Shown piece by piece: positions 1 to 10,571 of a stretch of DNA of 16,589 bases. Below the pieces are notes generated by a model. That model was not told the DNA's origin. It ran no database searches and saw only the letters and a list, made by a program, of their open reading frames with translations. Made by a program: the position numbers and the translations under genes. The number at the start of each line of letters is the position of its first letter. The first letter of the stretch is position 1. The DNA is from Paracoccus aerodenitrificans (GTDB lineage: Bacteria; Pseudomonadota; Alphaproteobacteria; Rhodobacterales; Rhodobacteraceae), in the NCBI RefSeq assembly GCF_027913215.1, contig NZ_CP115781.1:1-16589 (forward strand). Reading direction: 5' to 3'.

Positions 1-117
1 GTCTACTTTCTTGAGCAAGAATGGCGGATGTGGATGAACGATCCGCCACGCCATCCAGATGCCGCCTTCGTGGGCTTCTGCAGAAAGTGGTACGAGCGCA
101 AAGGCCGTGCTCCATAA
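1..117 (+). CDS. repA: RepA C-terminal 38 residues (continuation of the gene starting at 15654)
   Basis: Read from base 1 in frame 1, this gives 38 residues and a TAA at 115-117. It contains HPDAAFVGFCRKWYERKG, which matches the characteristic C-terminal signature of RepA/RPA initiators (DAAF-GFC-). There is no start codon and the first codon follows the last codon of the window without a gap, so it is the missing end of the repA gene at the right edge. parA follows 89 bp downstream in the same direction, giving the common rep-par order. Confidence 0.92.
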   Translation, partial: VYFLEQEWRMWMNDPPRHPDAAFVGFCRKWYERKGRAP

Positions 118-206
118 CAGGTAACACATAATAGATAACCGATATCAGTTATGTGTTGACAGTTACCAGTTATGAGTTAAGGGTTGAGAAAAACAAGGGG
201 CAGGCC
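118..206 (+). promoter_or_regulatory. Partition control region: nested inverted repeats and possible parA promoter
   Basis: The gap between repA and parA is dense in symmetry. An 18-bp palindrome with one mismatched pair lies at 135-152 (ATAACCGATATCAGTTAT). AACACATAA (123-131) pairs with TTATGTGTT (149-157), and GGTAAC (120-125) with GTTACC (162-167). TATCAGTTAT (143-152) recurs as TACCAGTTAT at 164-173. A perfect -35 hexamer TTGACA sits at 156-161 inside the repeats, but no convincing -10 follows at 17 bp, so the promoter is tentative. An AAGGGG-type ribosome site lies just before the ATG at 207. The repeats probably bind the RHH protein at 857-1150, as operator and/or centromere. Confidence 0.6.
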
Positions 207-869
207 ATGGCGCAGGTGATCAGCGTAGTACAGGAGAAAGGTGGAGCGGGTAAAACAACGCTCCTGACAGCGATTGCCAGCCTGATGGTCCAAGACGGTG
301 CCAGGATCGCTGTCATCGACACAGACCCTCAACGCCACTTGGAGGCATGGGCCAAAAAAGAAGAGACTGATCTCGATTGGCTCTATGAAGAGGATGACGA
401 AAAGCTAATCCCAACCGTTAAAGCGTTGAAGAAGGCTGATCCTCCCTACGACGCGATCTTTGTAGACACTGCGGGCTTCAAGTCGGCCATGGCAATGCAT
501 GCTATCGCGGCTGCAAACCTTATCCTGATCCCGTCAAAGGCAAACGAAGCCGACGCCAAAGGCGCCAAGCGCACGTTTTCGCACGTTCAGAGCGTTGCTG
601 AGACGATGGAGAAAGAAATTCCGGCGCTGGTAGTAATGATGGATGTGGACACACAGACAAACATCACGCAGGCCATCGTTGATGCGCTAGATGCTCAGAA
701 CGTGCCACGGCTTAATGCCATGTGCGCGCATCGCACAGGCTTCAAAGAGATGACTTCCACAGGACAGGCTCCACAGGGGTCGGCGCGGCGATCGGCTCAA
801 TCCGTGCTAGCAGACTTGCAGGGCAGGGGTCTCATCAGCTTCTACAGGAGCGGCTCATGGCCAAAGTAA
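207..869 (+). CDS. parA: ParA-family partition ATPase
   Basis: This is a 220-aa MinD/ParA-type ATPase that would move and position plasmid copies with its DNA-binding partner. The deviant Walker A box KGGAGKTT is at residues 11-18, the second conserved box AVIDTDPQ at 35-42, and the Walker B-like IFVDTAG at 84-90. Its length matches short (type Ib) ParA proteins, which lack an N-terminal HTH, and such proteins pair with a small ribbon-helix-helix protein, as found here. I chose the ATG at 207 because AAGGGGCAGG precedes it and the protein then begins right at the first strand of the fold. An upstream in-frame ATG at 153 lies inside the palindrome region and adds no conserved sequence. The 3' end overlaps the next gene by 13 bp. 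Confidence 0.9.
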   Translation: MAQVISVVQEKGGAGKTTLLTAIASLMVQDGARIAVIDTDPQRHLEAWAKKEETDLDWLYEEDDEKLIPTVKALKKADPPYDAIFVDTAGFKSAMAMHAIAAANLILIPSKANEADAKGAKRTFSHVQSVAETMEKEIPALVVMMDVDTQTNITQAIVDALDAQNVPRLNAMCAHRTGFKEMTSTGQAPQGSARRSAQSVLADLQGRGLISFYRSGSWPK

Positions 870-1150
870 GCGTAAACCTTGATGACGACTTGGATGCTGA
901 CGACAGCTCGAAAAAGCTGAAGGCGGTGACAGCACCTTTGCCGAGTGTGAGCAAAGCAAAATCTTCCGCCCTGAAGGACGCGCCTCGTGTGCAGTTTTCA
1001 TTCACCAACGTTCCGAAACCGATCAAAGAAGCTTTTTCCGCAGAGGCTCAAAGACGTGGCGTCACAAAAAAAGAGTTGCTTTATGAGTGCTTGAGGGCCG
1101 GAGGAATCGATATTCCAGATGCGTCTGAGATCGATGGCCGCAGAAGGTAA
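857..1150 (+). CDS. Ribbon-helix-helix centromere-binding partner of ParA
   Basis: This is a 97-aa protein starting at an ATG preceded by AGGAG (846-850), inside the end of parA, so the two genes are probably translationally coupled. The N-terminal ~40 residues are acidic and low in structure. Residues ~44-84 look like a ribbon-helix-helix unit: a short strand (VQFSFTNVP), a helix (KPIKEAFSAEAQRRG), a turn (VTKK) and a helix (ELLYECLRAGGI). A disordered tail plus RHH fits ParG/ParR-like proteins that bind the centromere and repress the par operon. No ParB (HTH/CTPase) motifs are visible. The RHH call is from pattern only; the partition role is inferred from the position behind parA and the repeats on both sides. 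Confidence 0.7.
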   Translation: MAKVSVNLDDDLDADDSSKKLKAVTAPLPSVSKAKSSALKDAPRVQFSFTNVPKPIKEAFSAEAQRRGVTKKELLYECLRAGGIDIPDASEIDGRRR

Positions 1151-1152
1151 TG

Positions 1153-1174
1153 GTTATCAGTTATCAGTTATTGG
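1153..1174 (+). repeat. Tandem TATCAGTTAT repeats behind the par genes
   Basis: TATCAGTTAT occurs at 1155-1164 and again, overlapping by 3 bases, at 1162-1171 (period 7, TTATCAG). The identical decamer lies in the palindrome in front of parA (143-152), with a one-base variant at 164-173. Copies on both sides of the parA-RHH pair suggest binding sites for the RHH protein, or a trace of how the cassette was inserted. Confidence 0.6.
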
Positions 1175-1264
1175 CAAAGTCAACGCCATGATAAGATTTA
1201 GAGAACATAAAGAGAAAATTCCGCCGGAACGATTGATCTACGCGGGGCAGAGCAGGGGGTTAAG

Positions 1265-2968
1265 ATGCTGATAGCGGGAGTCGTGGGACATGCTGAAACG
1301 AATGCGATAAACCTCCCGCAGGGTTTTGAGAAAGGCCAAGTATTCACTCCGACTTTTCTCGCGAGCTGGGTGGCGGAGTTGCTCAAGGAGCAGCTTGGAG
1401 AAGACTGGTCCGGCAAGGTTCTTGATCCGGCATGCGGTGATGGTGAGTTGCTAGACGCGGCTGTTGCCAAGCTCCCTAAATCGAAACTGTACGGCGTTGA
1501 CATCGATGATTCAGCCACACGGTCTGCGCGATCACGGCTTTGCCATTCGGCTACGATCAAGACTGCTGACATGCTTATGTGTCCACCTGCAGGCAAAACC
1601 GGAAAACCGCTCACGTTCGGTGCGTTGGTTTCTAACCCTCCTTGGGGAGCAGACCTACTTCACTCCCGCGAAGCGCTGAAAAAGCTGGGGTACTCCCTTG
1701 CCAATGGGCAGTTCGATAGCTGGTCCCTTTTCGTGGAGGCCTCACTAAGCGTCCTCGATCCAGGGGGTGTTGCTGCTTTCATCCTGCCCGACGCCATCTT
1801 TGCTCCAGAGCATACCGCGACCAGGGAACTTATCGCCCAGCATTTCTCCATAGAATTGATTGCTCGCCTCGGTGAAGGCATCTTCAGAGGTGTGTATCGA
1901 GGAACCACGGTCCTCGTTGTTCGAAACGCGAAACCTGAGCCAAACCACCTCGTTGAAGTTTTCAGGCTGGCCAAGTCTGAAAGGGCTGCCGTGATGACTG
2001 GGTGCCTCGATCTTCAAGAGGCGCGTATGCGTGACCGGCATTTTGCCCCTCAAGGTCGGTTCGTTTCGGACACGCGGGCACGTTGGGACATTGACGTTCG
2101 CTCTTCAGACCAGAAGGTTTTGGAGAGAATGGAATCTGAAGGGGGAAATTGGTCAGAGTTAGTCCTCTCTGGCCGAGGTGTAGAGCTATCGAAAAAGGGG
2201 CTTGTGAAAGCATGTCGCAGCTGTGGCCATGCAACCCCTGCACCGACACGTCCGCGCGATGTTACCTGTGCTGGTTGCGGCAGGACCGCTCATTCAGATG
2301 AGATGCTCACAGAACGGATCGTGGTAGGTGAACCTGACTGTATCCCAGGTTTCATGCCCCTTATCGTTGGCGAAGATATTGGTCGATACGATTTATCCTG
2401 CTCCCGGCAGATCAAGCTCGACGTACCGGGAATAAACTACAAAGACCAAAAGCTTTATGGGCAAGAACGACTGCTCGTGAGGAAAACAGGCATTGGCCTG
2501 AAAGCCACAGTGACGAAGAAGGTCGCGGCATCGAACCAAGTCGTGTTCCACTATGTCCCTCGCTCAAAGGATCTAGGCTTCTTTCTCTACTATGTGCTTG
2601 GAGTTCTCTCATCCCGCACGATGTTCGCATATCACCTTCGAAAGTCAGGCGAGAACGAATGGCGCTCACACCCCTATGTGACGCCGAAGTCGCTTGCTGC
2701 ATTGCCAATCCCAACGCCAGAGGTTGGCACCCAAACTTGGAGACAAGCTGTTGAAATTGCTAACCGAGTTAGAAAGCATCTCCGCTATCAGGGGCGGAGC
2801 AAGAGGCTTGACCTAGAGATCGAGGGCCTGGTCGCGGGTCTTTATGGCCTAGGTCAGTCCGATCTCGGTTGGGTCAAGAAAGTGATCTGTGAAGCACAGA
2901 ACCTAGAGCCGATGCGTGCTCTTAGTGAGTTCGACGCCAGCTCGATCTCTATCGAGGTGGTGTCGTAA
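1265..2968 (+). CDS. N6-adenine DNA methyltransferase (TaqI/Eco57I-like) with zinc ribbon in the recognition half
   Basis: This 567-aa class I SAM-dependent enzyme would methylate adenine at N6 in a defined site. Motif X-like KGQVFTP is at residues 23-29, motif I VLDPACGDGELL at 52-63, an acidic motif II/III (VDIDD) near 78-82, and catalytic motif IV NPPW at 124-127. Downstream is the target-recognition half, where Cys317, Cys320, Cys335 and Cys338 form a CxxC-14-CxxC zinc ribbon, followed by GFMPLIVGEDI, a typical start of a specificity region, and SHPYVTPKSLAALPIP near the end. No nuclease motif is visible before the methylase domain, so it is not an obvious fused type IIG enzyme. AGGGGG at 1254-1259 supports the ATG at 1265. 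The next gene starts 6 bp after its stop. Likely one of two methylases of the R-M module. Confidence 0.85.
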   Translation: MLIAGVVGHAETNAINLPQGFEKGQVFTPTFLASWVAELLKEQLGEDWSGKVLDPACGDGELLDAAVAKLPKSKLYGVDIDDSATRSARSRLCHSATIKTADMLMCPPAGKTGKPLTFGALVSNPPWGADLLHSREALKKLGYSLANGQFDSWSLFVEASLSVLDPGGVAAFILPDAIFAPEHTATRELIAQHFSIELIARLGEGIFRGVYRGTTVLVVRNAKPEPNHLVEVFRLAKSERAAVMTGCLDLQEARMRDRHFAPQGRFVSDTRARWDIDVRSSDQKVLERMESEGGNWSELVLSGRGVELSKKGLVKACRSCGHATPAPTRPRDVTCAGCGRTAHSDEMLTERIVVGEPDCIPGFMPLIVGEDIGRYDLSCSRQIKLDVPGINYKDQKLYGQERLLVRKTGIGLKATVTKKVAASNQVVFHYVPRSKDLGFFLYYVLGVLSSRTMFAYHLRKSGENEWRSHPYVTPKSLAALPIPTPEVGTQTWRQAVEIANRVRKHLRYQGRSKRLDLEIEGLVAGLYGLGQSDLGWVKKVICEAQNLEPMRALSEFDASSISIEVVS

Positions 2969-2974
2969 GTTCCC

Positions 2975-4003
2975 ATGTCATATCGCTATATTGGTAATAA
3001 AACACGGCTTCTGCCGGTGCTCATGGATTCCTTTAGAGAGGCCGTGAACGACGGTGCGACTGTGGCTGACATCATGTGTGGCACAGCCTCAGTTTCTGAA
3101 GCCCTAAGAGAGAACGAGTACCGCGTTATCGCGTCTGATATGATGACCTTTGCAGCTCATCATGCGCGTGTAAGGCTGCTGCTTTCTGAGCCACCGAAGT
3201 TCACCGAGACCGGGCTGAAAGGCTACTCGGATGTGCTAGAGCACCTAAACCGCCTCGACCCAGTCGAGGGGGTCTTCTTCAAAGAATACTCGCCTGATGG
3301 ATCACCTGCCAATGGTGGCGATCCCAGAAAGTATTTTAGCAGCGACAATGCAGGCATGATTGATTCGATCACAGCCAAGCTAAACCAATGGCACACGGAA
3401 GAAGTCATCTCTCCGCTAGAGAATTCGCTATTGCGACATGACTTGGTGCTTGCCGCCAATCGAGTGGCAAATATTGCGGGCACGTATGGCCATCATCGAT
3501 CCAAATGGGGAAAGTCAGCCCAATCGCCTTTGGAGATGCGCCCAACAGAGATACACAACGGGCATCGAACTGACCACATCGTGCACCAAGGAAGCGCCGA
3601 GACAGTCGCGCCATTGGTAAAGGCCGATCTGTGTTACATCGACCCGCCCTACATGAAGCGCCAGTATGCTGCGAACTATCATATCATCGAGACCATCGCT
3701 CGGGGCGATACCCCAGAAGCCGTTGGTGTTAGCGGCCTGCGTCCTTGGCGCGATCAGTACTCGGACTTCTGCTCAAAGGTGAAAATTCGTGATGCCTTCC
3801 GTGCGATCTTCAATGGCGCTGAGTGTGATCAGTTCATGATCAGCTACAGCGAAGATGGGCTACTGTCCGAAGAACAGCTTCTGGAACTTTTCTCCGAAGT
3901 CGGCAGTGTAACACTCAAGAAAATCCCATTCTCCCGCTTTAGGAGCAATGCAGGCGGGCAGGGGGGAACCGTTATCGAGTATCTCTTTCACATCAAGCGG
4001 TAG
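2975..4003 (+). CDS. D12-class (Dam-like) N6-adenine DNA methyltransferase
   Basis: This 342-aa enzyme has the alpha-class order of motifs: YIGNKTRLLP (motif X) at residues 5-14, a variant motif I DIMCGTASVSEAL at 32-44, and catalytic DPPY at 223-226 within LCYIDPPYMKRQY. The long spacer between motif I and DPPY would hold the target-recognition part. In the usual family motif I contains FxGxG, but here it is CGTAS, an uncommon form. The start at 2975 lies 6 bp after the preceding methylase, so the two are surely co-transcribed. Having two unlike m6A methylases suggests an asymmetric recognition site with one enzyme per strand, as in type IIS systems; this is inference. Its last 11 bases overlap the end of the opposing HNH gene. 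Confidence 0.86.
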   Translation: MSYRYIGNKTRLLPVLMDSFREAVNDGATVADIMCGTASVSEALRENEYRVIASDMMTFAAHHARVRLLLSEPPKFTETGLKGYSDVLEHLNRLDPVEGVFFKEYSPDGSPANGGDPRKYFSSDNAGMIDSITAKLNQWHTEEVISPLENSLLRHDLVLAANRVANIAGTYGHHRSKWGKSAQSPLEMRPTEIHNGHRTDHIVHQGSAETVAPLVKADLCYIDPPYMKRQYAANYHIIETIARGDTPEAVGVSGLRPWRDQYSDFCSKVKIRDAFRAIFNGAECDQFMISYSEDGLLSEEQLLELFSEVGSVTLKKIPFSRFRSNAGGQGGTVIEYLFHIKR

Positions 4004-5126
4004 CGACCGCACCGCCAGCATCAGAGATCACTTTGGCATGCTCAGGCCGCCAAGTAATCGTGAAGGTCTCTCCGTTGATCGTGAAGTCAAGTTTGTCGTC
4101 AGCGATCTTGGAAAGATCAATCCCTTCAACAACCGCATAATGCAACATCCGATGAATGTGGGCGCTAATGACAACAAGGTTCGCGGGGTCGTCTGAGCCG
4201 CCTTCGCCAAGTGGAACCAAGTGGTGAACTTCCAGGTACGGTTCACCGTTTACCTTTGAAAACACGAAGTCATCTCCGGTGACCTGGCAAGTCTTGTAGA
4301 GCCGCTTAAGGTCTCGGACGGCTTTACGGTTTCTCTCGAAGGTTTCTATGACTTTCTGGGTCTTCTTCACCTCTTCCGATGAGCTGTCGTCTTGGAACAA
4401 GTCCGCGGCGATGGCTTCCTCAGTGCGACCGGCCTTCGCATTGTAAGGTGCCTTCTTCGGCGGTTTCTCCTCGGCATCGACCCCGGCTTCAGCTTCCGTA
4501 GCAGCGTGTGGCTGCACGCCAAATGGGTCTTTTAGACTGGTGACATCAAGCTCTACAGCTGGGTCGAAAGACAGATGCCCGGCTGGTTCGACAAGCATCT
4601 CTTCAAATCGTGCGTCAACTGCGGCGAGGCGTTGGATTTGTTCTGTGCGGAGCCAACCGGCCCAGTATGCACCTTGTTCGGTCTTGAGAATGAATATTCT
4701 AACGCCAGCAGTAAGCTCAATCACCCTTGGGTCTTCCGCTGAAGACATATCTGCCGGGGCGCGTGGAAAATCACCGTGATCTGGGTGCCATGCAAGCACA
4801 CGGTTACTCGATCGGCTTAATAGCTTCTGGGACCGAATGTTGACGCTGGCGTCACGTCTCTGGCCAATCGCAACCTCTTGACGACCCAAGTTCCCCAGGC
4901 TGTTGATCTCAACATTCCAAAGCGGCCCGCTTCTCGTTTCTGCAGGTTCGACATTGGCAAAAAATGAGTGCCAAGTATCGAGATCAACGTTTCGGACGGG
5001 CACGTCGATGTAGGACTGCCCACCTCCTCGATCTTCAGTCCCAGGTGGTTTGTTGATGTTGAAAAAGTCGGCTGGCGTAATCTGCCGGAATACTAGTTCT
5101 TTCAATTCTGCCAATGTCTTGCCCAT
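3993..5126 (-). CDS. HNH endonuclease, probable restriction partner of the two methylases
   Basis: The 377-aa protein ends in an HNH nuclease module. Residues 280-329 hold Cys280, the paired histidines EVHHLVPL (299-306), Asn316 in GGSDDPANL and IHRMLHYA (324-331), matching the beta-beta-alpha-metal fold. A linker rich in Glu and Lys (about 210-265) separates this from an N-terminal ~200 residues containing WHSFF, RSQKLLSRSSNRVLAWHP and VRIFILKTEQGAYWAGWL; I do not recognise this part, and it may be the DNA-recognition domain. Gene position, head-on to two adenine methylases with an 11-bp overlap, points to the restriction enzyme of an R-M system. The start is the ATG at 5126; its ribosome site is weak. 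An alternative is a modification-dependent or homing-type nuclease, less likely beside methylases. Confidence 0.78.
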   Translation of the reverse strand: MGKTLAELKELVFRQITPADFFNINKPPGTEDRGGGQSYIDVPVRNVDLDTWHSFFANVEPAETRSGPLWNVEINSLGNLGRQEVAIGQRRDASVNIRSQKLLSRSSNRVLAWHPDHGDFPRAPADMSSAEDPRVIELTAGVRIFILKTEQGAYWAGWLRTEQIQRLAAVDARFEEMLVEPAGHLSFDPAVELDVTSLKDPFGVQPHAATEAEAGVDAEEKPPKKAPYNAKAGRTEEAIAADLFQDDSSSEEVKKTQKVIETFERNRKAVRDLKRLYKTCQVTGDDFVFSKVNGEPYLEVHHLVPLGEGGSDDPANLVVISAHIHRMLHYAVVEGIDLSKIADDKLDFTINGETFTITWRPEHAKVISDAGGAVATA

Positions 5127-5195
5127 GCTGCAATTTGACGAACTGAGTCGCCTTCATTGCTCGTGACACTACATCAGAAGATCATCTGCCGTCAT

Positions 5196-5735
5196 CTAAG
5201 CTCGTCTCACCGTCCGTTCGCTCACCTTAAACAGCCGCGCGATCTCTGGGATTGCGCGATGTTCCTCATCTCGCATGCGGCGCACTTCGACCTTCTGGGC
5301 TATCGAAAGGGCAGGGGGCCTACCGCCGATCCGGCCACGCTTACGAGCCGAAGCCAGGCCCTCCCTGGTCCTCTCTGAAATCCGCTCGCGCTCGAACTGA
5401 GCAATGGAAGCGAAGACATGGAAAACCAATCGGCCTGCCGGCGTTGTGGTATCGATGTCCTCGGCTAGGGACCGAAAGCCAGCACCACGTTCCCGGATCG
5501 CCTCTACGATCTCCAAGAGGTCCTTCAAAGACCGCGCCAGGCGGTCATACTTCGTGACTGTCACAACGTCGCCGTCGCGGAGCTGCTCCAGCATTCTGTC
5601 CAGTTCCGGGCGGGTGCGCCTCGATCCGCTGATCTTGTCTGCGAAAACCTTCTCGGCACCAGCTGCCGAAAGGACATCCGTTTGTGAATCCAGGCTCTGG
5701 TCGTCAGTGCTGACGCGGGCGTATCCAATGATCAT
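5196..5735 (-). CDS. Serine recombinase, resolvase/invertase family
   Basis: This 179-aa small serine recombinase has GYARVSTDDQ at residues 4-13 with nucleophile Ser9, VTKYDRLARSLKDLL around 58-72 containing the catalytic Arg pair, and the long E-helix region (AGRLVFHVFASIAQFERERI). Residues ~145-179 form the usual C-terminal HTH (IPEIARLFKVSERTVRRA). It would exchange strands between two short sites, either resolving plasmid dimers or cointegrates or inverting a segment. The length is standard and the gene is intact. The 128 bp in front of it contain six CCAAAA/TTTTGG-type half-sites, fitting a res site upstream of its own gene. No transposase or terminal inverted repeats are seen nearby, so it may be a plasmid-stability resolvase. 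Confidence 0.9.
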   Translation of the reverse strand: MIIGYARVSTDDQSLDSQTDVLSAAGAEKVFADKISGSRRTRPELDRMLEQLRDGDVVTVTKYDRLARSLKDLLEIVEAIRERGAGFRSLAEDIDTTTPAGRLVFHVFASIAQFERERISERTREGLASARKRGRIGGRPPALSIAQKVEVRRMRDEEHRAIPEIARLFKVSERTVRRA

Positions 5736-5745
5736 GCCTCACTGT

Positions 5746-5853
5746 GACAAAAACCTGCCAAAACCGCAAAGGTTTTGCCGGGGGTTTTTGTCCTAGCTAA
5801 GCGGTTGATCCTAGGTAGGGCAAGGCGTTTGGCCAAAAACGACCGTTTTTGGC
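5746..5853. promoter_or_regulatory. Res-like site: nested inverted repeats upstream of the resolvase
   Basis: The outer arms are GACAAAAACC (5746-5755) and GGTTTTTGTC (5783-5792). Inside them CAAAACC (5759-5765) pairs with GGTTTTG (5771-5777). A third symmetric element is the perfect palindrome GCCAAAAACG/CGTTTTTGGC (5832-5841 and 5844-5853, 2-bp spacer). The total of about 108 bp directly upstream of a small serine recombinase gene is the size and place of a three-subsite res. The last palindrome also lies 11 bp beyond the 3' end of the HEPN gene and could double as its terminator, although no T-run follows. Confidence 0.6.
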
Positions 5854-5863
5854 AATTCGCCGA

Positions 5864-6568
5864 TCAATGCACGATGCTTTCAGCCGCATCCTTCAGTAGA
5901 CGCCCCATGATCGTTGCGCGGGTATCTGGACTATTAGGGGGATGCTTTGCCTTCAGGTAATGTCCAGCTTGTTGAATGCGGTTGACGTTTCGCTGAAGGC
6001 CTGTGGGATAAAGCGCTCCTGCACTGAACGCTTCGTTCAGGCGGTCCAGCGATCCCTTGCTGCGATGCGCAAGGTTATTGCGAGTCGCTATTACAGCGTT
6101 GATCACCGCTTTTTGCTGGGCGTTCAATCCGGTGAATCTGTTGCGGTGGTGATCGGCAAGCCATTGCTGCGCACGATCCTCAATAGCCACGAAATTCGGA
6201 AAAGACGTGTTTCGGCCCTCTGGGTCGAGTATTGCCTTAAGCTCTGATTTAGTCAGGTGATCCCGGTGTTTGAAGTCCGCAAACTTGTTGAACGCGGCTT
6301 CCGCCTTGGGAATGGCTGCAAGCGTTTCGCGCACACTGTTTTCAAGGTGCTGCATCACGCGGGAGCAGTCGCGGTTCGCATAGGCAAAGATGAGGTCATT
6401 TATATAACCTTCGAACATGACGCCAATTGTCAGAGCGTAGTTTTCGGTTGCGATCTTCCGATCAGCTGCACCGGTAAGCGTGCTCCAAGAGCTTCGGTAG
6501 TATTGCGACTGTTCATCAAGCTGATCTTCAAAGTCTTCCCAAACTCCTTCGGGGTCAATCTTCCGCAT
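5864..6568 (-). CDS. HEPN-domain protein, putative RNase
   Basis: This 234-aa, mostly alpha-helical protein has no signal peptide or membrane segment. Residues 163-168 read RNNLAH, within VIATRNNLAHRS, the R-x4-H signature of catalytic HEPN ribonucleases. An earlier helix has TIGVMFEGYINDLIFAYANR (48-67), whose conserved acidic residue is where HEPN proteins often place one. The gene resembles stand-alone RiboL-PSP/MAE-type HEPN proteins found in defence and toxin loci; this family link is from memory. AAAGGA stands about 10 bases before the ATG at 6568. It diverges from the HTH-helicase gene across a 279-bp shared control region, so the two may form one abortive-infection type system. No antitoxin-like partner such as an MNT nucleotidyltransferase is present. 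Confidence 0.72.
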   Translation of the reverse strand: MRKIDPEGVWEDFEDQLDEQSQYYRSSWSTLTGAADRKIATENYALTIGVMFEGYINDLIFAYANRDCSRVMQHLENSVRETLAAIPKAEAAFNKFADFKHRDHLTKSELKAILDPEGRNTSFPNFVAIEDRAQQWLADHHRNRFTGLNAQQKAVINAVIATRNNLAHRSKGSLDRLNEAFSAGALYPTGLQRNVNRIQQAGHYLKAKHPPNSPDTRATIMGRLLKDAAESIVH

Positions 6569-6805
6569 CTGAGAATCCTTTGGCGAAGCCCTGAATGGTG
6601 AGAACCTTCCAGCCTGAGCTTATCATGTAAACAGATTGGCCCGGCATTTCTTGGGAATCCTCGTAGGACAACTGATCTGAGGTCTCGTGATGCTCACCCG
6701 ACACCAGCGTTAGTCGCGAGATGCCGAAGTCTACGCTTCTGTAACGGCGTCCCTAGGATCAGCGGGTTGACCCAAGTCGATACAATCAGGCCTTGCATGT
6801 TGCAT

Positions 6806-6824
6806 CATTTGACATCAAATGGCA
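6806..6824. promoter_or_regulatory. Palindromic operator candidate in front of the HTH-helicase gene
   Basis: CATTTGA (6806-6812), a 2-bp spacer, then TCAAATG (6815-6821) form a perfect palindrome. TGC at 6801-6803 and GCA at 6822-6824 extend it with a two-base bulge. TTGACA (6809-6814) lies inside it and TATACG follows at 6826, but only 11 bp separate them, so they are not a normal promoter pair. The palindrome ends 16 bp before the AGGAG ribosome site. It is a natural target for the HTH domain of the helicase itself, or for a dimeric host repressor. Confidence 0.45.
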
Positions 6825-6847
6825 GTATACGGCAAAAGGAGTCGAGC

Positions 6848-8848
6848 ATGACCGAAGAGTGGATGACAATCGAAGAGACTGCGCGCTACCTACAGATCGG
6901 GAAAACCGCACTGTACGATCTCGCGAGGGAGGGGACGCTCCCTTCCAACAAGATTGGCAGCAAATGGCTATTCAGCAAGAAAGACCTAGACGCTTGGGTA
7001 AGGTCGAATATCCCCCTTGAGCAGTTCTTCATGAGGACACCTGCTCATATCGAGGAAAATCTTCAGCTCAGGGAACCGCAAGTCGAAGCCTACAGGGCGC
7101 TCTACGAGTATTTTCGTTCAGGCCGCAAGTCCGCGATTATTCAAATTCCTGTTGGGTGTGGCAAATCCGGAATCGCTGCTATCGTTCCGTTTGGGATTGC
7201 CAAAGGTAGGGTGCTCATCGTCGCTCCAAACTTGACGATCAAAGAAGGTCTATTCGAGTCGATGGACGTGACCAACCGCCAAAAGTGTTTCTGGCGTAAG
7301 CGCGGAATCCTAAACGACGAAGCGATGATTGGCGGACCCTTTGCGACCACGCTGGACACCGGCAACATCTCTGTTTGCGAAAAGTCGCATATTGTCATCT
7401 CGAATGTGCAGCAGCTCTCTACCAACCCCGACAAGTGGCTGCATCGCTTTCCAAGAGATTTCTTTGATATGCTTATTGTGGACGAGGCTCATCACGCGCC
7501 AGCGGCCAGCTGGCAAAAAGTATGCGAACATTTTGGGGATGCGAAGATTGTCAACATGACGGCAACTCCGTTCCGGGGTGACGCACAGGAAATCGAGGGA
7601 GATCTCGTCTATCGTTATCCCTTCAAAAAGGCGACATTCAAAGGATACATCAAACGACTAACAGCATCGTATGCCGCACCAAATGAGTTAGAGTTCACAG
7701 CACACGGTGAGACCAAGACCTACTCGCTCGATGAAGTCTTGAAAATGAAAGAGAAAGACTGGTTTAGCCGCGGTATCGCTCTCTCGGAGCCGTGCAATCA
7801 AACAATTGTCGACAACAGTCTCCAGCGCCTCGAACAGTTACGCGAGACAGGGACCGCGCACCAACTCATCGCCGTTGCGTGTAGCGTCAATCACGCTCGG
7901 TCCATTGTGCGACTTTACGAGGCACGGGGTTTCAGTGCCGATCTCATCTATAGTGAAATGGACGAAGACAAGAAGGTGGAAGTCAAACGTCGTTTGAAGA
8001 GCGGCGAGCTAGACGTCATTGTTCAGGTTCAGATGCTCGGCGAGGGTTTTGATCATCCGAAACTGAGTGTTGCAGCCATATTCCGGCCCTTCCGCACACT
8101 AGCACCCTACGTTCAATTTGTCGGCAGGGTTCTCCGCGTCATTGTGCAAAACAGCCCCGGCCATCCTGACAACTACGGGCATATTGTAACCCATGCGGGA
8201 ATGAACCTCGATGAGAGGCTTCGGGAGTTCAAGCTCTTTGAAAGCGATGATCAGAAATTCTGGGAAGACGTCATAGGCGGAAAAGAGCCAGAGCCGTCTG
8301 ATGAAGTCAAAAGCGGGCAAGCCCGAATGAAACTAGGCGAGCAAGCAGTCGTGAATTACGAGATAGTTGACGAACTGATCGAAGAGCAATTCACGTCAGC
8401 GGAACAAGAAGACATCATCAACGAACTAAGGGAAAAGCTAGATCAACTCGGCCTCGATCCAGAACAGGCCGAAGCGATAGTACTAGCTAAGTCCAGCGGT
8501 CGTACGATGACCAAAGCGGCGCAACCGTTTCAGATTCTACCTCAACGTGAATGGGAAGCCCAACGAAAGGGCCTGAATGACCAGGTCAACCGAGCCGCAA
8601 ACCTGCTTATGAACAGGCTTGAGATAAATCGCGCTGGCCGCGATCTCATAAATTTGGGGGTCGCAGCGACGAACAACTTCGTCGCGGGCGTGACTCTCAT
8701 CAATAAGGAATTGAAGGCCAGCTTTCCCAAGCAGAGAAAAGAATGGTCAGTCGAGGAGTTCAAGGCGGCTGAAGCTGAACTTGAGAACATCCTCAATTCA
8801 CTTACGCGCCGCTACAAGGGGCTAATGAATGGCAAAGCCAAAGGGTAA
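6848..8848 (+). CDS. Excisionase-type HTH fused to a superfamily 2 DEAH helicase
   Basis: The 666-aa protein starts with an AlpA/excisionase-like winged HTH (residues ~6-51: MTIEETARYLQIGKTALYDL, then IGSKWLFSKKDLDAWV). A complete SF2 helicase follows: Walker A PVGCGKSG at 101-108, DEAH at 212-215, motif III MTATP at 237-241, motif V LGEGFD at 397-402 and motif VI QFVGRVLR at 423-430. The C-terminal ~200 residues are charged and helical, and I do not recognise them. I chose the ATG at 6848 because AGGAG at 6837-6841 precedes it; an in-frame TTG at 6767 would add 27 unconserved residues. It overlaps the zinc-ribbon gene and diverges from the HEPN gene. An HTH of this kind on a helicase suggests site-specific loading or autoregulation. 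A defence role is inferred from context. Confidence 0.85.
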   Translation: MTEEWMTIEETARYLQIGKTALYDLAREGTLPSNKIGSKWLFSKKDLDAWVRSNIPLEQFFMRTPAHIEENLQLREPQVEAYRALYEYFRSGRKSAIIQIPVGCGKSGIAAIVPFGIAKGRVLIVAPNLTIKEGLFESMDVTNRQKCFWRKRGILNDEAMIGGPFATTLDTGNISVCEKSHIVISNVQQLSTNPDKWLHRFPRDFFDMLIVDEAHHAPAASWQKVCEHFGDAKIVNMTATPFRGDAQEIEGDLVYRYPFKKATFKGYIKRLTASYAAPNELEFTAHGETKTYSLDEVLKMKEKDWFSRGIALSEPCNQTIVDNSLQRLEQLRETGTAHQLIAVACSVNHARSIVRLYEARGFSADLIYSEMDEDKKVEVKRRLKSGELDVIVQVQMLGEGFDHPKLSVAAIFRPFRTLAPYVQFVGRVLRVIVQNSPGHPDNYGHIVTHAGMNLDERLREFKLFESDDQKFWEDVIGGKEPEPSDEVKSGQARMKLGEQAVVNYEIVDELIEEQFTSAEQEDIINELREKLDQLGLDPEQAEAIVLAKSSGRTMTKAAQPFQILPQREWEAQRKGLNDQVNRAANLLMNRLEINRAGRDLINLGVAATNNFVAGVTLINKELKASFPKQRKEWSVEEFKAAEAELENILNSLTRRYKGLMNGKAKG

Positions 8849-9089
8849 GACACCTTCACTTTTGTCCCAATCGACGGGCAAACCTGTCAGCCACATTTGT
8901 GGCAAGGCAACGAAATGTAGCAGATGCTCAACGCTTGTCGGGGCTGGGCGTAAATGCTTCAAAATTCCGAAGGTTAAGAACGGATTTACAACCAGGCCCA
9001 TCTTCTGCGTAGGCTGCACAGCTGACATTATCTCACAAACGAATTCAGAGTTAACCGCGATCCAGGCTGAACTGGACGCCGCCAGCTGA
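8829..9089 (+). CDS. Small zinc-ribbon-like protein coupled to the helicase
   Basis: This 86-aa basic protein has Cys24, Cys30, Cys33, Cys43, Cys60 and Cys63. The pairs CSRC (30-33) and CVGC (60-63) look like the two knuckles of a zinc ribbon. The start ATG at 8829 has AAGGGG (8816-8821) before it and sits inside the last 20 bases of the helicase gene in another frame, so translation is probably coupled and the proteins are likely made in fixed ratio. The N-terminus is Lys/Pro-rich and the C-terminus is a short helix. I recognise no named family. As the partner of a helicase it may bind nucleic acid. It is followed at once by terminator hairpins, which closes the operon. Confidence 0.7.
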   Translation: MAKPKGKTPSLLSQSTGKPVSHICGKATKCSRCSTLVGAGRKCFKIPKVKNGFTTRPIFCVGCTADIISQTNSELTAIQAELDAAS

Positions 9090-9091
9090 CC

Positions 9092-9107
9092 CGCCCCCTT
9101 AGGGGCG
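9092..9107 (+). terminator. Terminator-like hairpin after the helicase operon
   Basis: CGCCCC (9092-9097) pairs with GGGGCG (9102-9107) around CTTA, beginning 3 bases after the stop of the zinc-ribbon gene. No T-run follows, so it may act as a pause or an mRNA 3' stabiliser. Confidence 0.45.
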
Positions 9108-9125
9108 TCCGCGCGAAGCGCCGGG

Positions 9126-9163
9126 CCTGTCGGCGGGTAGCCTTCAGGTTACCCGCCGACAGG
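9126..9163. terminator. Long perfect hairpin, probable bidirectional terminator
   Basis: CCTGTCGGCGGGTA (9126-9139) is an exact inverted copy of TACCCGCCGACAGG (9150-9163), and the loop itself can pair CCT with AGG. It stands between two convergent transcription units (helicase operon and ardC). There is no T-run on either strand. It could instead be a structural or protein-binding site. Confidence 0.5.
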
Positions 9164-9207
9164 TCACCCGGAAACCGCCACCACCTCGATCACGCCACAA
9201 CGCGAAG

Positions 9208-9230
9208 GGCCCCGCCTGCTGACGGGGGCC
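9208..9230 (-). terminator. Terminator of the ardC gene
   Basis: GGCCCCG (9208-9214) and CGGGGGCC (9223-9230) form a GC-rich stem with one bulged base, about 26 bp past the ardC stop. On the minus strand the stem is followed by CTTCGCGTT, a short T-containing tail. Confidence 0.5.
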
Positions 9231-9255
9231 TCGATCGTTGCGGTGATGCGGGCAG

Positions 9256-10140
9256 CTACTCAGCGGCCATCCGGTCGGCCTGCGCAGTGCGGTCCATGAT
9301 GTAATCCACGGCCTTCTGCGCCTCGGACGCGGCGCGGAAAATCGCGCGGCTGTCTTCCTTCATCGCCTCCAGCCATCCTTCGACATAGGCCGCGCTCTGA
9401 TCGAACTCAGGCTCAACACCGATCTGCGCGCAAAGCATGCAGTTGCCAATCTCTGCGACCAGCTCCTCGAAGGCATAGGCCTTGCGGTCATTGAACCGGC
9501 CCAAACGGTCCAGCCGCTTTGCCGCGCCTGTCCAGTGGATTGTCTCATGGGCCAGAGTGCCAAAATACCCAGCCGCCCGATAGAACGTGCCAATCGGCGG
9601 CATGTGGATGCGGTCGGTCTTGATGTTGTAATAGGCGCGCGGCTCCTCGGTCACGTCGATCTGTGCGCCGGTCGCGGCAAAGAAGGCCTCCAGCGCGGGG
9701 TCGGCCACGGTGCCTAGATCGCGGGGCGGATCGGGCAGGATGTAGAATTCAGCGGGCAAACCCTCGATCTGGTCGGCATTGAACACGCGGTAAGCCTTGG
9801 CATAGGGGATCTGACGTTCCTCGCCGTTCTCGTCCTCGCGCTCGACGGTGCCGTATTTCACCACGGTTGCGGATTTCTCGCCCTTGCGAACATGGCCCCC
9901 AAGCTGCTTGGCCTGATTGAACGTCATCCAGCGGGCTGAGCTGTAATCCTTGGCCATAGCAGTCGCCCAAAGCATCAGGATGTTGATACCCCGATAAGCC
10001 TCGCCGTTGAACCGTTCCGGCAAACTGACCCCTGCCCCTCCGCCAGTCCACGGCTTGCGCCAGGGCGGCGCCCCCGCCTCGATCTGCGCAATGATCTGAT
10101 TGGTGACATGGGTGTAAACGTCAAACTTCTCTGCGGTCAT
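9256..10140 (-). CDS. ardC: ArdC-type antirestriction protein with zincin-like C-terminal domain
   Basis: This 294-aa protein has the two-part layout of ArdC. The N-terminal ssDNA-binding domain (about 1-130) has VTNQIIAQIEAGAPPWRKPW at residues 12-31, then FNGEAYRGINILMLW and GGHVRKGEKS. The C-terminal metallopeptidase-like domain has HETIH at 198-202 (the HExxH motif) and FEELVAEIG after 224, which can supply the third metal ligand. Such proteins protect incoming plasmid DNA from host restriction. AAGGAGGG 8 bases before the ATG at 10140 fixes the start; an in-frame ATG at 10296 would add 52 residues without conservation. The gene looks complete and belongs to the high-GC backbone. It may help transfer into hosts with restriction systems, although the plasmid itself carries an R-M module. 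Confidence 0.88.
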   Translation of the reverse strand: MTAEKFDVYTHVTNQIIAQIEAGAPPWRKPWTGGGAGVSLPERFNGEAYRGINILMLWATAMAKDYSSARWMTFNQAKQLGGHVRKGEKSATVVKYGTVEREDENGEERQIPYAKAYRVFNADQIEGLPAEFYILPDPPRDLGTVADPALEAFFAATGAQIDVTEEPRAYYNIKTDRIHMPPIGTFYRAAGYFGTLAHETIHWTGAAKRLDRLGRFNDRKAYAFEELVAEIGNCMLCAQIGVEPEFDQSAAYVEGWLEAMKEDSRAIFRAASEAQKAVDYIMDRTAQADRMAAE

Positions 10141-10571
10141 TTGTGACCCTCCTTCGAGTGACGCGGGCCGGGTCTCTTCACCTTTCCGCCGATGGGCGGG
10201 CCTTCCTGTTCTGATCTTTGGAATGCCCATGCATTCCGAAGGGCAGAGCAGGTAAGGGCAAAGCCCGTCCTGCGGCCCGGGCAGGGGCCGTGACAACCGG
10301 GTGGAGGGCGTGAATTTGGGAGGGAACCGCGCGCCTGCGCGTGGGAGGAACCGGAATTCTCGACCGGAACCGACGCCTTAGGGCGGCGCTTGCCGGTTTT
10401 CTCGGACCTGCCGGGATGGCAGGCGGATCAAGAGGATTTTGAACCTGTCAGGGCCGGGGTGAGCGGGTGTCGGCCCGTCGAACCCCTGCCCTGTCTATCG
10501 CTCAAAGCGAGACCGGCGTGCGCCGGGATCACTGAACTCTATCGAGCCACATCTAGCTCGATAATATACGA
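10141..10571. promoter_or_regulatory. Gene-free stretch rich in hairpins upstream of ardC
   Basis: No coding region with family features is seen in this ~430 bp. It contains GGAATGC-CCAT-GCATTCC (10220-10237), a large hairpin CAGGGCCGGGGT (10449-10460) with ACCCCTGCCCTG (10482-10493; one mismatch) and an inner CGGG/CCCG stem, and TATCGAGC (10540-10547) with GCTCGATA (10556-10563). The ardC promoter must lie here. The last repeat abuts an AT-rich stretch (ATAATATACG) that may be the promoter of the gene to the right. Folded single-strand promoters drive antirestriction genes on some conjugative plasmids; whether that applies here is only a possibility. Confidence 0.5.

Follow-up and report, generated by a model that had tools for sequence, protein, structure and literature searches.

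A helicase gene with a small zinc-ribbon-like partner and a separate HEPN gene as adjacent, probable defence cargo on a Paracoccus plasmid

A plasmid of Paracoccus aerodenitrificans (contig NZ_CP115781.1, the whole 16,589-bp stretch of which is analysed here as the window and which is one contig of a 3.56-Mb genome) encodes, side by side, a HEPN-domain protein, a superfamily 2 (SF2) helicase and a small zinc-ribbon-like protein, which raises the question whether these three genes form a single defence system. The first-pass annotation, made from the sequence alone, described the parts correctly: the HEPN protein has an intact R-x4-H motif (R163-N-N-L-A-H168), the SF2 helicase with the DEAH motif (residues 212-215; Walker lysine K106) carries an excisionase-type helix-turn-helix (HTH) domain (PF12728) at its N-terminus, the 86-amino acid (aa) gene begins 20 nucleotides (nt) before the end of the helicase gene, and the setting includes a restriction-modification (R-M) block (1265-5126) on a mobilizable plasmid with a MobQ relaxase and a TraG-like protein. 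The most likely answer is that the segment carries two mutually independent modules directed against phages or plasmids, not one system, and we give somewhat better than even chances to the specific version in which a helicase-zinc pair that blocks invader DNA and a single-gene HEPN RNase are adjacent cargo modules; in both formulations, the defence role is derived from gene neighbourhoods.

The helicase and the small protein are a true two-gene unit. A genome scan with the helicase identified 109 relatives, from which 80 loci were kept, and the clade I hidden Markov model (HMM) of the zinc protein matches right at the helicase end in all kept loci with at least 49% helicase identity except L050, where the contig stops within the helicase. 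In the clades with approximately 40% and 34% identity, the matches start at query residue 32-73, so that these helicases apparently lack the HTH domain; a shorter relative of the partner is encoded in the same position, as read from the downstream frames, with a core that resembles R-x-C...G-x-x-C-L-V...Y-C-x-x-C/A. Comparison of the partner profiles links clade II with clade III (98%, E 1e-13) and clade I with clade II (87.5%, E 3.6e-6). A census was made with three HMMs; those for clades II and III were built partly from the same loci, and the clade I model from database proteins and that of the window. Of the 110 helicase loci that have 250 bp or more of downstream sequence, among which the window, G259 and G334 are counted more than once, 104 have a partner (family I, II or III) at -31 to +40 nt from the helicase stop. 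The co-occurrence check proposed in the first-pass annotation thus comes out in favour of these two genes, and a chance overlap is ruled out by the same count. The evolutionary distances of helicase and partner are correlated, with r of 0.935 for 78 pairs and 0.884 for 47 clade I pairs, and none of 2000 permutations reached as high a value in either set. The two proteins may well form a complex. The Rhizobium and Aminobacter records carry no annotation for the partner gene, so that the pair is easily missed.

The helicase contains an SF2 RecA1-RecA2 motor of the RadD type. RadD is its closest fold and also its best match in NCBIfam (release 20.0), with 86 bits (the next repair families are UvrB with 36 and XPB with 22), although the RadD cutoff of 720 bits is not reached; no model in PADLOC (2.0.0) or NCBIfam came near its cutoff for the helicase. 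The alignment with RadD extends only to model residue 481-485. According to excerpts of PMC9049331, RadD has two zinc fingers, ZF1 and ZF2, which follow the second lobe within one polypeptide, whereas the window helicase lacks cysteines in residues 432-666, that is, after the second RecA lobe, and the zinc-like module is encoded by the separate overlapping gene; of the two proteins, an N-terminal HTH domain is present only in the clade of the window helicase. Domain and family searches matched no nuclease family in the helicase. Given that RadD speeds RecA strand exchange (PMC8887467, in excerpts), the pair could be a RadD-like accessory of repair, recombination or replication that serves the upkeep of mobile elements and is found near defence genes since both reside in islands, an alternative that we consider rather unlikely. 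The RadD-like fold and sequence match and the presence of the helicase family in viral contigs and, with a coverage of at least 80%, in 29 plasmid records are in its favour, and the absence of the RadD-type zinc fingers in cis speaks against it. So does the patchy spread that is typical of defence modules: the helicase is rare in the samples at E<=1e-60, being present in 4 of the 390 order-level genomes and in 5 of the 385 class-level ones. A search of phage records with the helicase at E<=1e-30 gave no match. In a FastTree phylogeny of 79 rows, 73 of which carry a phylum label, 22 phyla are represented and at least 30 changes of phylum are required compared to the minimum of 21; many of these rows are metagenome-assembled genomes in which binning errors are possible, e.g., the 98%-identical copy in a 'Cytophagaceae' assembly (L009).

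The genomic context is the principal evidence for a defence function. For 49 loci, at most two proteins on either side of the pair were taken, the helicase and the partner being excluded, which gave a neighbour set of 134 proteins after 45 of the initial 179 were dropped. At E<=1e-60, 44 PADLOC models matched among these proteins, which is not a protein count because several models match the same protein, compared to none among 134 control genes (of 172, in 18 stretches of six genomes of the class of the window) that come from large contigs, are unmatched for mobility or phylum and were scanned at this threshold only. In scans of single neighbours, the pair is immediately followed by GajA and GajB in Sinorhizobium meliloti 4H41 (L026) and by PsyrT in L037; other loci have HamB (L030), LmuB of Lamassu (L022), a type I methyltransferase (L044) or a weaker helicase match (L052). 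The pooled scan added, among the matches listed (25 of the 44 models), AbiEi, AbiEii, HamA, a type II methyltransferase and restriction endonuclease, and a DruM-type methylase. In Rhizobium, a Shedu gene is located about 2.6 kb downstream of the pair. Such neighbours (PsyrT, Gabija, Hachiman, Lamassu and AbiE, with zero in the controls) are what defence modules show, and there is no recurring third gene, as no Pfam family occurs in more than 3 of the 134 proteins; both observations are at odds with the accessory role. What stands of the suggestion that this is an undescribed defence locus is therefore the conserved helicase-zinc pair, with its defence neighbours and with no description found in the open-licence literature as judged by titles and the beginnings of abstracts; the membership of the HEPN gene does not stand. 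In L026 (10276-14213, GajA-GajB) and L037 (7622-9778, PsyrT), the defence genes start within about 30 bp of the end of the zinc partner, as if they shared an operon.

The HEPN protein belongs to a family of its own distribution. The R163-N164-x3-H168 motif is invariant in 46 rows and fits the rule for RNase-type HEPN domains, namely Rx4-6H with a polar residue after the arginine (PMC3710099, in excerpts). The window protein itself shows no HEPN match in a Pfam search, and the assignment comes through its relatives: PF18735 is matched by 29 of the 46 rows at E<=0.1 (best 7.7e-8) and is present in P0169, a full-length relative with 56% identity. These sequence features predict a metal-independent RNase. 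Four viral contigs that belong to one lineage (L108-L111; 94-99% identical) carry a 78%-identical relative on the strand opposite to its neighbours, between a DUF6441 gene on one side and, on the other side, a 379-aa gene without a recognised family followed by a tape-measure gene (Pfam was run on L109 only). Other relatives adjoin an integrase gene (L112) or are located near a head-tail attachment gene (L113). On pDY25-G, which shares the backbone of the window, a 33%-identical relative adjoins a Shedu gene upstream of the resolvase, and the order is the same in Sulfitobacter p5 apart from one additional small open reading frame in between. A further 33%-identical relative has a DruA-domain gene at a distance of about 1 kb (G318), a 58%-identical one has no recognised defence neighbour (G137), and three Cupriavidus plasmid records contain relatives as well. 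The phage records searched gave no match to the HEPN protein at E<=1e-5. No helicase of the family discussed here is present in the HEPN-only loci (the viral contigs, pDY25-G, Sulfitobacter p5, G318 and G137), which are 3-19 kb long. The gene thus appears to travel alone, in the single-gene cargo pattern of Tha, and would be a new member of the stand-alone HEPN cargo. Tha is a HEPN defence protein of Staphylococcus prophages, a single phage-borne protein that is activated by a phage tail protein and has the motif R265NSIMH270 in Tha-1 (PMC11087260, in excerpts); it is 301 aa long with HEPN as its C-terminal part, compared to 234 aa for the window protein; the likeness consists in the R-x4-H motif and the single phage-borne gene. 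By analogy, the HEPN protein would probably be a phage- or plasmid-borne RNase that acts by abortive infection. On two plasmids other than that of the window (L005, 7553-8908; L006, 9001-10887), distant HEPN relatives likewise precede the resolvase gene on its upstream side, in the same order and on the same strand as in the window. A sequence search of the PDB with the HEPN protein yielded 16 matches, of which 15 are 'Pizza' designed repeat proteins, and no stretch passed alone, so that they were treated as an artefact; searches of PDB sequences with the HEPN and zinc-protein profiles gave nothing useful.

The first-pass annotation had instead joined the three genes into one abortive-infection system, with the helicase-zinc pair as the sensor and the divergent HEPN protein as the effector under a shared 279-bp control region, and had named failure of the homologues to co-occur as its refutation. 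A HEPN homologue is present in only 2 of the 80 helicase loci (L009 and L010), in both cases with a helicase 98% identical to that of the window and in none beyond these, although 8 loci have less than 1.5 kb upstream and could hide one; and the HEPN gene occurs without this helicase in viral contigs, on other plasmids and in two genomes of the order. The order-level sample has HEPN in 5 of 390 genomes and both genes in three, namely that of the window and two from a single genus; in the class-level sample, HEPN is found in 1 of 385, again the window's own. The 279-bp gap is 69.5% identical in L009 and 86.7% in L010 and L122; its conservation is lower than that of the HEPN, helicase and zinc genes, which speaks against the single system. 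HEPN as the effector of the helicase is not supported by the test set for it. A three-gene system as a general rule is ruled out by the census of loci and genomes. The single-system explanation draws on the collinear HEPN-helicase-partner-ArdC block. This block, from about 5751 to 10,447-10,517, is 93% identical at the DNA level in L010 and G259, and L009 shares window positions 5195-10,212 at 91%, resolvase included; given that the genome of L010 and G259 have the same flanking genes, this amounts to three contexts, the window included (L009 and L010/L122 being the other two). All four genes evolve under purifying selection (dS 0.14-0.39, dN/dS 0.02-0.08), which together with the collinearity indicates that each is selected and that the block moved as a unit. 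As ArdC is kept in it too, the collinearity does not single out HEPN, and we regard one joint system as improbable.

Several observations weigh against the interpretation as two independent defence modules. The joint retention of HEPN, helicase, partner and ArdC at such dS values would fit a functional link. Since the control genes were unmatched for mobility or phylum, part of the enrichment may mean that the pair 'lies in islands', which also favours the accessory role, and 13 of the 20 neighbours scanned singly have no PADLOC match at E<=1e-20. A clade III pair located behind a primase-C-terminal (rep-gene) fragment of a Klebsiella plasmid of 5.9 kb (L126, 1-2304) would likewise fit a replication helper. 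By sequence, the archaeal XPBII chains in PDB score slightly above RadD (56.7 versus 50.6 bits). The partner profiles of clades I and III show weak similarity (21.5%), and the clade II partners lack several cysteines, so that zinc binding is not essential throughout the family. Finally, 6 of the 110 loci have no partner in the three-HMM census: in L025, the helicase frame is broken and the partner is seen with the clade I HMM; in L076, a long open reading frame that by appearance encodes a transposase starts 10 bp downstream; and L095, L096, L128 and L130 are distant forms.

With the two-module interpretation, the first module would consist of a RadD-like SF2 motor, with an N-terminal HTH in this clade, and the separate zinc-ribbon-like protein. 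The HTH and the zinc protein would place the motor on invading or replicating plasmid or phage DNA, at branched, nicked or single-stranded intermediates, where ATP-driven remodelling would stop replication or recombination of the invader; because no nuclease family was matched, damage would come about through remodelling or through recruited host enzymes. A bolder formulation, an unnamed immune system of two genes that spans phyla, in which a nuclease-free RadD-like HTH-helicase and a zinc-ribbon reader of broken or branched DNA remodel invader intermediates instead of cutting them, is tentative. Binding of nicks by the partner in the manner of zf-PARP is only a lead, with 2 of 23 rows at E<=1 (best 0.0079) and similar scores for DZR_2 and others.

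Hachiman (HamA-HamB), PsyrTA and Gabija are small defence modules with a helicase. They are neighbours of the pair rather than its relatives: HamB, GajA and GajB are absent from the 19 PADLOC matches of the window helicase, the PsyrT match reaches only 20.2 bits, and the partner matches no PADLOC family at E<=0.1 and no NCBIfam model. In DISARM, as in the window pair, the zinc-binding part is separate from the helicase, but DISARM and YprA are characterised by the zinc-binding DUF1998 domain, located in cis or encoded next to the helicase gene, whereas neither the window helicase nor its partner has a DUF1998/YprA-type Pfam match, and a DUF1998-type zinc domain is not among 25 of the 28 families listed for 23 partner rows; the DrmA models give 13.1-14.5 bits to the helicase, and the partner family is about 73-100 aa long. 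Membership in MADS, suggested by mad1 and mad2 matches of the helicase HTH and the window methyltransferase, was rejected as MAD1 scores 56.7 bits, below the cutoff of 80, and covers the HTH only. The pair is best described as a two-gene helicase module of defence islands for which PADLOC and NCBIfam hold no model. Should the pair serve in defence, it would be a widespread system (22 phyla, 29 plasmid records, 5 of 385 class genomes) that is missing from the catalogues searched. Even as a mobile repair helper, its near-constant small partner offers a handle on the use of zinc modules by RadD-type motors, which is described as still unclear for RadD itself (excerpts of PMC9049331). The locus is also a warning not to take neighbouring divergent cargo genes for a single system.

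Table 1. Features of the HEPN-helicase segment in the window.
Feature	Position	Strand	Remark
HEPN-domain protein, 234 aa, R163-N-N-L-A-H168	5864..6568	-	predicted to be a metal-independent RNase; separate cargo gene that stands alone
Intergenic region of 279 bp, HEPN and helicase genes divergent	6569..6847	.	one weak sigma-70-like match
HTH_17-SF2 (ResIII/Helicase_C) helicase, 666 aa, ATG at 6848	6848..8848	+	RadD-like motor core; C-terminal part mostly alpha-helical
HTH_17 (excisionase/MerR-like) domain, helicase residues 5-54	6860..7009	+	PF12728, E 2.6e-15
Small zinc-ribbon-like partner, 86 aa	8829..9089	+	20-nt overlap with the helicase gene
Two presumed zinc knuckles in the partner, C30-x2-C33 and C60-x2-C63	8916..9017	+	invariant in 15 rows; clade II has lost part of them
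Inverted repeats of the GCCAAAAA/TTTTTGGC type, clustered between resolvase start and HEPN stop	5746..5861	.	candidate res-like site, left cargo edge

A longer helicase frame with a TTG start at 6767 is also open. Among the distant helicases, two from viral contigs (L095, 3941; L096, 9865) have a different overlapping gene of about 105 aa in place of the partner, and one on a Leptospira plasmid (L128, 5158-8232) has a caspase-family gene on one side and, on the other, a 110-aa gene that is not recognised as a partner. A megablast search of E. coli genomes with the clade III pair gave no match.

The plasmid encodes RepA, ParA and ArdC, as identified by domain search, and the MobQ relaxase and TraG-like coupling protein, as identified by match to annotated relatives; its backbone has matches in plasmids of Roseobacter-group bacteria. 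It is probably a complete circle because both contig ends are contiguous when aligned to pROLI18. Homology to L005, L006 and L008 stops at 5851-5853 and homology to L010 and L122 starts at 5751. As these edges fall within the inverted repeats next to the resolvase gene, cargo was probably swapped at the resolvase site, and the repeats would probably be a res-like recombination site that loads cargo and forms the left edge of the block. The R-M block comprises an N6-type methyltransferase with an internal CxxC region, a D12 methyltransferase and a convergent HNH protein, the gene of which overlaps the D12 gene by 11 bp. A single unit of R-M, HEPN and helicase genes was rejected, as Roseobacter litoralis pROLI18 has the R-M block and the resolvase (window 1-5851, 71% DNA identity) without HEPN or helicase, and different cargo lies beyond the resolvase there.

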